This document shows positions 1-11,830 of a stretch of 38,798 bases of DNA, piece after piece. Under the pieces are notes generated by a model. It saw only the letters and a program-made list of their open reading frames with translations, was not told where the DNA came from and searched no databases. A program made the position numbers and the translations under genes. The DNA lies in the NCBI GenBank assembly GCA_020061465.1, contig JAGUYG010000107.1:1-38798 (forward strand), given 5' to 3'. Source of the stretch: Ignavibacteriales bacterium (GTDB lineage: Bacteria; Bacteroidota; Ignavibacteria; Ignavibacteriales; Ignavibacteriaceae). How positions within the stretch are numbered: position 1 is the first letter of the stretch; every line of letters starts with the position of its first letter.

Positions 1-92
1 TCCAAAGGACTCATTTGAGGGATGAGTTCTACTTTTCCGAAGGATCAGCCTGATTGTTTGTAGCTTTTCCGAAGGATCAGTCTGACTGCTAC
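1..92. repeat. Short tandem repeats with TCCRAAGGAT core
   Basis: Two near-identical units with the core TCCGAAGGATCAG lie at 36-48 and 68-80, a period of 32 bases. A more diverged unit (TCCAAAGGACTCA) sits at 1-13. After each core there is a small dyad (for example ATCA-GCC-TGAT). The same core recurs at 10174, 10214 and 10339 (reverse strand), and inside a coding fragment at 11729. There are too few copies and no regular spacers, so this is not a CRISPR array. It is best read as part of a dispersed repeat family. Confidence 0.6.
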
Positions 93-10170: not shown

Positions 10171-10354
10171 CTTTCCGAAGGATCGAGTTTGTGTAAAAAA
10201 TGCTATTGTCATTTCCAAAGGATCATTTGATCGACGGCAGGGAGAAATCTTCATTTACGCTTTGATTTCTCAGTCGCAGCGTTCCTTCCTGCCTGCAGCA
10301 GGCAGGCGAAATGACATCTTTTAGTTTTTACACAGTCTCGATCCTTTGGAAAAG
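10171..10354. repeat. Nested inverted-repeat element (MITE/REP-like)
   Basis: Outer arms of about 29 bases (10171-10199 and 10325-10354) are inverted copies differing at few positions, both carrying TCCRAAGGATCGAG followed by TGTGTAAAAA. Inside is a second inverted pair, TGTCATTTC (10207-10215) and GAAATGACA (10308-10316). Deeper still are GAGAAATC (10242-10249) with GATTTCTC (10264-10271), and a 19-base dyad CCTGCCTGC-A-GCAGGCAGG (10288-10306). There is no coding capacity. The inner part resembles the GTCATTTC...GAGAAATC palindromic repeats common in Bacteroidetes intergenic DNA (from memory). Confidence 0.7.
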
Positions 10355-10400
10355 CTTTGTTTTTATATGAAATTTAAACCATCAGCCACAAATACGCCGA

Positions 10401-10434
10401 GTAGGTCAAGGGGAGTTTTGCCCCTCAACCTCTC
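10401..10434 (-). ncRNA. Group II intron domain VI and 3' splice end
   Basis: In minus-strand sense the sequence directly after domain V folds as GGTTGAGGGG / CCCCTTGACC around a CAAAACT loop and ends in CTAC. This is the expected shape and 3' end of intron domain VI. An A in the 3' strand six bases from the end is a candidate branch point. The intron/exon border would lie at about 10400/10401. Confidence 0.6.
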
Positions 10435-10436
10435 AC

Positions 10437-10470
10437 AGAACCGTACGTGACAGTCTCCTGTCATACGGCT
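10437..10470 (-). ncRNA. Group II intron domain V
   Basis: The 34-base minus-strand hairpin begins with the catalytic AGC triad (AGCCGTATGACAG), has a GAGA (GNRA) tetraloop, and closes with CTGTCACGTACGGTTCT. It matches bacterial group II domain V with no obvious damage. It lies about 20 bases after the maturase reading frame. Confidence 0.85.
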
Positions 10471-10490
10471 GGTGTTATTCAATAATAGTT

Positions 10491-11532: not shown

Positions 11533-11820
11533 AATATTCCTAACAGCTTTACAATTTCAAACTATCCAAATCCGTTTAATAACAGCACAACTATCGCTTA
11601 CACCTTAAAAGAAAAAAACAGCGTCAGCTTAACTGTTTACGATATCCTCGGAAGAGAGCTGAAAGTATTGGTAAACACAACTCAAGAAGCCGGAGAGTAT
11701 ACAACGCATTTTAACGGTTCGAAGTATGTCCGAAGGATTGTTCCGATTAGTGGTGTTTACATATACCAACTAAGAGTTAATGACAAAACCTTTGTAAAAA
11801 AAATGCTGCTTGCGAAGTGA
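11533..11820 (+). pseudogene. Orphan T9SS type A sorting domain fragment
   Basis: The frame after the TAA at 11530 reads KIPNSFTISNYPNPFNNSTT, then VSLTVYDILGRELKVLVN, EAGEYTTHFNGS, SGVYIYQLRVND and KKMLLAK before the TGA at 11818. This is a full-length T9SS sorting tail without a start codon or passenger protein, so it is the 3' remnant of a lost gene. Between FNGSK and SGVYIY there are about eight extra residues (YVRRIVPI) encoded across TCCGAAGGAT at 11729-11738. That is the same core found in the intergenic repeats, so a repeat may have inserted in frame. Confidence 0.8.
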
Positions 11821-11830
11821 GGGCTTCGTA

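Follow-up and report, generated by a model that had tools for sequence, protein, structure and literature searches.

The window, the whole stretch of 38,798 nucleotides from an Ignavibacteriales genome that was analysed here, contains an orphan T9SS sorting domain with a short repeat inside its coding sequence. The tail gives a stop-free match to PF18962 (C50:11563-11808, E 7.4e-8). A preliminary description had placed a 10-base core, TCCRAAGGAT, at positions 36, 68, 10174, 10214 and 11729 of the forward strand and, reversed, at 10339; the five forward positions were borne out, and the reverse copy is a minus-strand copy at 10341. The copy in the tail was correctly taken for the same repeat as those elsewhere, but the repeat is an 18-mer and not the 10-base core. 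The features of the window that concern this repeat are the following.

36..53, forward strand: complete 18-mer unit TCCGAAGGATCAGCCTGA, outside the listed open reading frames, preceded by CTTT (32-35)
68..85, forward strand: complete 18-mer unit TCCGAAGGATCAGTCTGA, preceded by CTTT (64-67), with an empty counterpart at L103:19866-19823
10174..10183, forward strand: left half only, TCCGAAGGATC; the 18 bases from 10174 end in TG, not GA
10214..10223, forward strand: left half only, TCCAAAGGATC; the 18 bases from 10214 end in AT
10341..10350, reverse strand: left half only, TCCAAAGGATC; the flanking repeat at 10299-10350 is an empty site for L100:19127
11563..11821, forward strand: orphan Por_Secre_tail (T9SS sorting domain) with the insert, 95 codons open only
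11725..11728, forward strand: TATG, the four bases 5' of the unit (target position), with T at -4 and -2 and so not strict CNTN
11729..11746, forward strand: 18-bp unit TCCGAAGGATTGTTCCGA in the orphan tail, one base off TCCGAAGGATCGTTCCGA, encoding VRRIVP in the tail frame

When positions 11729-11746 are removed, the tail aligns with a paralogous tail (L106:13066-13302) over 79 residues at 76% identity and without a gap; the full window tail requires a 6-residue gap. The tail thus carries extra residues in frame, as had been claimed, but these are six (VRRIVP) and not "about eight" (YVRRIVPI). The tails do not share these residues independently of the repeat, as VRRIVP is found in none of the other 74 sampled T9SS tails. 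Since the orphan tail is possibly what remains of a gene, the in-frame status of its copy proves little. Just upstream of it, a group II intron domain (RF00029, 51.7 bits) lies at 10396-10473 on the reverse strand, and what appear to be pieces of a degenerate intron reverse transcriptase extend up to 11282. Larger composite repeats with TCCnAAGGATCGAGnCTGTGTAAAAA occur at 10174-10350 of the window and in L018, L100 and L116, and some of them are empty sites for the 18-bp unit.

The window has six copies of the core where shuffled sequence has 0.34 on average, and the count of the core in the window's own genome (G000; 4,207,972 bases in 122 contigs), proposed earlier as a check, is far above chance level, with 200 + 213 = 413 strand matches compared with 6 + 2 = 8 for a reversed-pattern control. 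Because a palindromic copy scores twice, the 413 strand matches stand for at least 207 places; the core matches are frequently arranged in inverted pairs. The core belongs to a longer 18-mer, TCn5GATCn5GA, with 112 matches and none for the reversed control in a sample of 778,208 bases (40 stretches and the window) that was picked around sites and T9SS tails and is biased towards the repeat. A stricter pattern, TCCRWAGGATCSTWYSGA, gives 126 + 104 = 230 strand matches in the own genome, or at least 115 places, with 0 for the control.

The 18-bp unit consists of two adjoining 9-bp dyads that are inverted partners, the core being one half, and its common form is TCCGAAGGATCGTTCCGA. The prevalent 9-mer halves are TCCGAAGGA, TCCAAAGGA, TCGGAACGA, TCCGTAGGA, TCCATAGGA, TCAGACTGA and TCAGAATGA. 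With the partner half fixed as TCC[AG]nAGGA, complementarity of positions 3 and 7 is seen in 59 of 66 free halves of other types in the own genome; in a second genome, G425, this holds in only 2 of 9. GTAG is found inside the unit in the GTA-loop variant only, and the bases 3' of the unit have no CCA-like conservation. The predicted single-strand folding of the units is weak: the full hairpin is the best predicted fold for two of eight unit forms, and one form clearly beats its own shuffles.

Five inserts in four genes could be examined by codon alignment, and in each case exactly six residues are absent from every relative aligned, two of the five units being one or two changes away from the common forms. 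The relatives belong to other genera of the same family and comprise only the loci returned. Exactly six residues are missing in 11 of 11 relatives of a SpoIID domain protein (from 30 genomes with a match), in 11 of 11 of a His_kinase family protein (from 29) and in 19 of 19 of a YacP-like NYN protein (from 25). A YdjM-like inner membrane protein has two sites, with six residues missing in 6 of 6 relatives at each; these come from eight genomes with a match, after exclusion of one broken and one weak match. Four other hosts were considered as clean cases and set aside. In the Cas1 and neopullulanase-like hosts the aligned blocks lie to either side of the insert, in the FeoB-like host the unit is at the end of the frame, and in the LeuB-like host of G425 it is not isolated but lies within a longer stretch that is missing from solved structures.

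At the nucleotide level, a gapless empty counterpart was found in the own genome for 24 of 94 sampled sites and a gapped one for none, under criteria (a unit with at most 1 mismatch, at least 12 bp per side, at least 88% identity) to which a large change at the junction would be invisible. The 24 cases are not all independent, since some larger repeats supply several of the counterparts. No empty counterpart was found within the sample from G425 for any of its 42 sampled sites; another genome, G424, was of no use as a donor of empty sites, its contig being 99.9% identical over 6,976 bases and carrying the same unit. Direct identity between the two flanks, as a target duplication would leave it, is at the shuffled level for k = 1-8 (87 of 95 sites, 8 of one T9SS type having been dropped). 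Inverted flank identity is depleted (4 against 15.7 for k = 2 and 0 against 6.7 for k = 3), and the two flanks therefore differ. The exact alignments, the gapless empty sites and the shuffled-level flank identity together give a net gain of 18 bp with no duplication. Wherever empty sites can be compared, the unit is an exact 18-bp gain with neither duplication nor loss of target sequence. For the insertion ends and target duplication, which an alignment of tails had been proposed at the outset to define, the outcome is ends that enclose exactly 18 bp and no duplication seen, and the idea of a small element inserting in frame is upheld by the exact gain of six residues, or 18 bp, over relatives and paralogues.

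The tetranucleotide CNTN adjoins one unit end in 46 of 84 sites in the own genome (expected 8.6, p = 6e-24) and in 35 of 48 sites in G425 (expected 5.5, p = 4e-23); these counts cover sites with distinct flanks (in the own genome 84 of 99 positions), and the p-values are optimistic because the motif was settled after the flanks of both samples had been viewed. Among the 59 orientable sites of the own genome, CNTN lies on the side of the TCC half in 31 and on the other side in 8; only nine sites could be oriented in G425, with no side preference (2 against 3). CTTT, CCTT and CATT account for 30 of 53 CNTN ends in the own genome, where CGTC and CCTC occur twice each. CNTN is a strong preference and not a rule: it is absent at 38 of 84 sites in the own genome, the window copy with its TATG among them, and at 13 of 48 in G425. 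Constant bases of the unit half could pair with the C and T of the target. For a guide pairing of the target tetranucleotide with the RNAG of the unit, no covariation was found in the own genome at the variable positions -1 and -2 (43 of 59 against 41.1, and 14 against 16.2, when shuffled).

Copies are found both within and outside long open frames, here defined as stop-to-stop frames and not as curated genes. In the own genome, open frames of at least 150 codons hold 34 of 94 sites, compared with 81% of random positions, and 60 of 94 sites lie outside; in G425 the figures are 28 of 42 sampled sites and 82%. Copies are read in both orientations and all three frames (23, 6 and 5 genic copies in the own genome; 18, 4 and 6 in G425). 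The favoured frame 0 reads S-x-G-S-x-G/R, and in the own genome repeated T9SS copies contribute to this. Eight forms of the unit were translated; four are free of stops in every frame, and stops occur in some frames of forms with TCCATAGGA, TCCGTAGGA or TCAGACTGA halves. The Pfam families of host proteins comprise SpoIID, His_kinase, the YdjM inner membrane protein, NYN_YacP, FeoB_N, Rhomboid, a PAS histidine kinase, ORF6N and Cas1. The suggestion that turns of secreted proteins are targeted does not hold, with most of the sampled copies outside long frames and with kinases, Cas1 and inner-membrane proteins among the hosts. In Cas1 (PF01867, L117:4581-5672), the 18-bp insert (SERSFG) lies close to the N-terminus, in a region for which solved Cas1 structures give no alignment.

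Within T9SS tails, an insert of the SVGSFG type occupies one turn in 14 of 75 distinct sampled tails. On a poorly resolved tail tree this insert needs 9 changes, at least two of them forced by starred branches, compared with a shuffled mean of 13.1; some tail copies therefore probably arose through tail duplication or exchange and some through separate events. Near-identical SVGSFG-type copies have thus probably spread in part by duplication or exchange of tails. Two tails only 5 kb apart and 96% identical differ in that one has the insert and the other does not, and inserts are also found at other tail positions (in the window and in L102:10556, L119:1022 and L107). A second palindromic repeat, GTAGAGACGGGGCATGCCCCGTCTCTAC (VETGHAPSL and variants), is present in frame in the T9SS tails L119:791, L109:17788, L111:738, L120:3486, L107:6361 and L107:8027, and in both L107 tails an 18-bp unit (SERSFG) sits inside an apparent copy of it. 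The tails L109:15471 and L108:14115 have inserts in the same region reading PLLGGKRGE and PLLGGARGG, perhaps a third repeat family.

The unit has multiplied in the own genome and in one other, with genic copies in three frames as well as non-genic copies. Three of 58 relatives have 1-2 strand matches, and four of 394 other genomes of the phylum have 1-3, the two samples overlapping. In a one-genome-per-species collection (84,980 species, from which records close to the own genome may have been left out), the exact 18-mer occurs on 14 contigs, of which six belong to five MAGs with the title Bacteroidetes bacterium. Six of these 14 loci were traced to genomes, which revealed a single further expansion, in G425 (locus L174, JAMCQL01, isolate FK_Sedi_A_Bin.46; 46 + 48 matches), the other five having 1-3 matches. 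G425 is far from the own genome, with six blastn matches between the two samples at 64-73% identity. High copy number together with lineage-specific spread is found here as in a REP/RAYT system. Matches were also seen in 11 stretches of viral contigs, for which only position and frame were recorded; one of these, L182 from IMG/VR, has one exact unit and three two-mismatch units within 4 kb.

Taken as a whole, these findings make it quite probable that the site in the window is one copy of an 18-bp miniature insertion element of the REP/RPE-like kind. On the simplest reading, insertion would take place regardless of frame and be followed by purifying selection. Genic copies would keep the frame because 18 is divisible by three, with stop-free and tolerated forms retained, and the element itself would not aim at frames or turns. 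A Y1-HUH transposase of the IS200/IS605 or RAYT type might mobilise single-stranded copies in trans; IS200/IS605-type transposition leaves no target duplication, and such a transfer would account here for both the absent duplication and the one-sided tetranucleotide. By itself this step is tentative, at somewhat less than an even chance. IS200/IS605-type transposition is described as recognizing hairpins, with a target tetranucleotide flanking the left end, and REPs are reported to have entered transposase genes of a subclass that is common in Bacteroidetes while leaving the frame intact (PMC6006769).

The density of the core at Y1 loci of the own genome is 0.35 per kb against 0.10 genome-wide, mostly owing to two loci, and the core is present at 4 of 10 such loci compared with 7 of 30 T9SS control loci. 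Seven Y1 loci of G425 were scanned, and one (L227) has two units. No Y1 gene was found to track the repeat, the counts of Y1_Tnp being 10 in the own genome and 11 in G425 against 9, 8, 4, 3 and 1 in the unexpanded G028, G014, G026, G053 and G422. A Y1 gene of the own genome (C33:4520) and one of G425 (C75:3506) share 78% identity over 464 bases, and units or unit-like cores lie close to both. They are first candidates only, because G028 has a gene 74% identical to C33:4520 and no match to the 18-mer pattern. An assessment of replication-strand bias by GC skew gave mixed values, with p = 0.019 in the own genome and p = 1.0 in G425.

A different route of insertion is a minority possibility that deserves to be taken seriously: the 18 bp might be inserted through a duplex-binding protein on the two dyads, another strand-transfer enzyme, or a templated event in replication or repair. 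Most units are predicted to fold weakly as single strands, the dyad symmetry of each half would also suit a dimer binding to duplex DNA, and no transposase gene tracks the repeat among the genomes looked at, all of which speaks for such a route; but the absent target duplication is unlike DDE transposases, and CNTN at one end together with more than 100 sites is unlike simple repair. The target-site duplication expected of a MITE of a DDE transposon was not found (shuffled-level flank identity, n = 87; gapless empty sites).

The remaining alternatives bear on whether the tail copy belongs to a mobile repeat at all and on what that repeat seeks. Specialisation for turns of secreted T9SS proteins would fit the inserts at several tail positions and the recurrence of the SVGSFG type at one turn, but it is very unlikely given hosts of other kinds and copies outside long frames; most tail copies, moreover, have the same position and almost the same sequence, so that shared descent or exchange explains many of them. 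A chance occurrence of the 10-mer in the tail, with no relation to the repeats elsewhere, is hardly credible, even with 0.34 core matches expected in the window alone and with a tail, L035, that holds TCCAAAGGAT in a stretch reading IPKDG, probably as a coding chance: 17 of the 18 bases of the window copy match the common unit, and exactly those 18 bp separate the window tail in length from its paralogue. The same exact net gain over relatives and paralogues contradicts the view, to which we give next to no probability, that a protein-binding or DNA-uptake-like motif was maintained through mutation and selection at sites already present, although hundreds of core matches, often in inverted pairs, are what such a motif would leave.

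The preferred reading, a REP/RPE-like insertion element, places the unit beside several known systems. Palindromic repeats within many unrelated proteins are familiar from Rickettsia RPE-1, which is several times longer; the 18-bp unit resembles it in being palindromic and lying within unrelated proteins and differs in adding six residues only and in using three frames. REPs are 20-40 bp long, mostly tagged GTAG or CGTC, and have intragenic copies on record (PMC3733652). The unit is like these REPs and REPINs (RAYT, TnpA-REP) in being a short palindrome with many copies, clustered in places, in the own genome mostly outside long frames and some intragenic, and in having a tetranucleotide 5' of the structured part. 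Unlike REPs, it has 18 bp, two 9-bp dyads in place of a single 5-13 bp stem, no GTAG or GTGG foot, flanks that favour CNTN outside the inserted 18 bp, and no RAYT clearly tied to it.

The CGTC-tagged REPs, including Rickettsia RPE-4 and RPE-6, are similar in their intragenic copies and in a C-N-T-C-like tetranucleotide on one side (CGTC, TGTC, CCTC); the same source reports them from Bacteroidetes and Chlorobi among others and knows of no dedicated transposase (PMC3733652), a feature that the 18-bp unit shares. They differ, on that description, in their stems of 8-9 bp, loops of 4-5 bases and CCA-like tail, where the unit has 18 bp and no conserved tail, and in that the tetranucleotide of the unit belongs to the target. 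Mitochondrial hairpin and double-hairpin elements are likewise small repeats, scattered among lineages, with tandem double hairpins and occasional frame-keeping gene inserts; the unit shares the small hairpin repeats, the scattered lineages and the frame-keeping inserts, but the mitochondrial protein-gene insert is 90 bp, and no target tetranucleotide is described in the portion of the source available (PMC2800124). A literature search on the unit sequences, on miniature or palindromic repeats of Ignavibacteria and on in-frame palindromic elements, which covered subscription journals thinly, returned nothing recognised as the unit. We class the unit with the REP/RPE kind as something that appears to work like one, not as a proven member.

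Intragenic small palindromic repeats are already known, and their movement has so far mostly been inferred. Here, empty sites compared at the nucleotide level fix the exact ends, show no target duplication and indicate a preferred target, all for a unit shorter than the 20-40 bp of REPs. It is possible, if not yet probable, that the unit represents a class of ultra-short noncoding elements of 18 bp with two 9-bp dyads, which insert precisely at CNTN without duplication, undergo bursts of multiplication in genomes far from each other and lengthen varied proteins by six-codon peptides. The tetranucleotide of the unit lies outside the insert, which suggests that the CGTC "tag" of CGTC-tagged REPs and short RPEs may come from the target DNA and lie outside the element itself. 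Through the 18-bp unit, proteins naturally acquire insertions of fixed length that keep the frame. Because the ends and target of the unit are defined, both the search for the enzyme and the spread of REP-like units can be tested directly.
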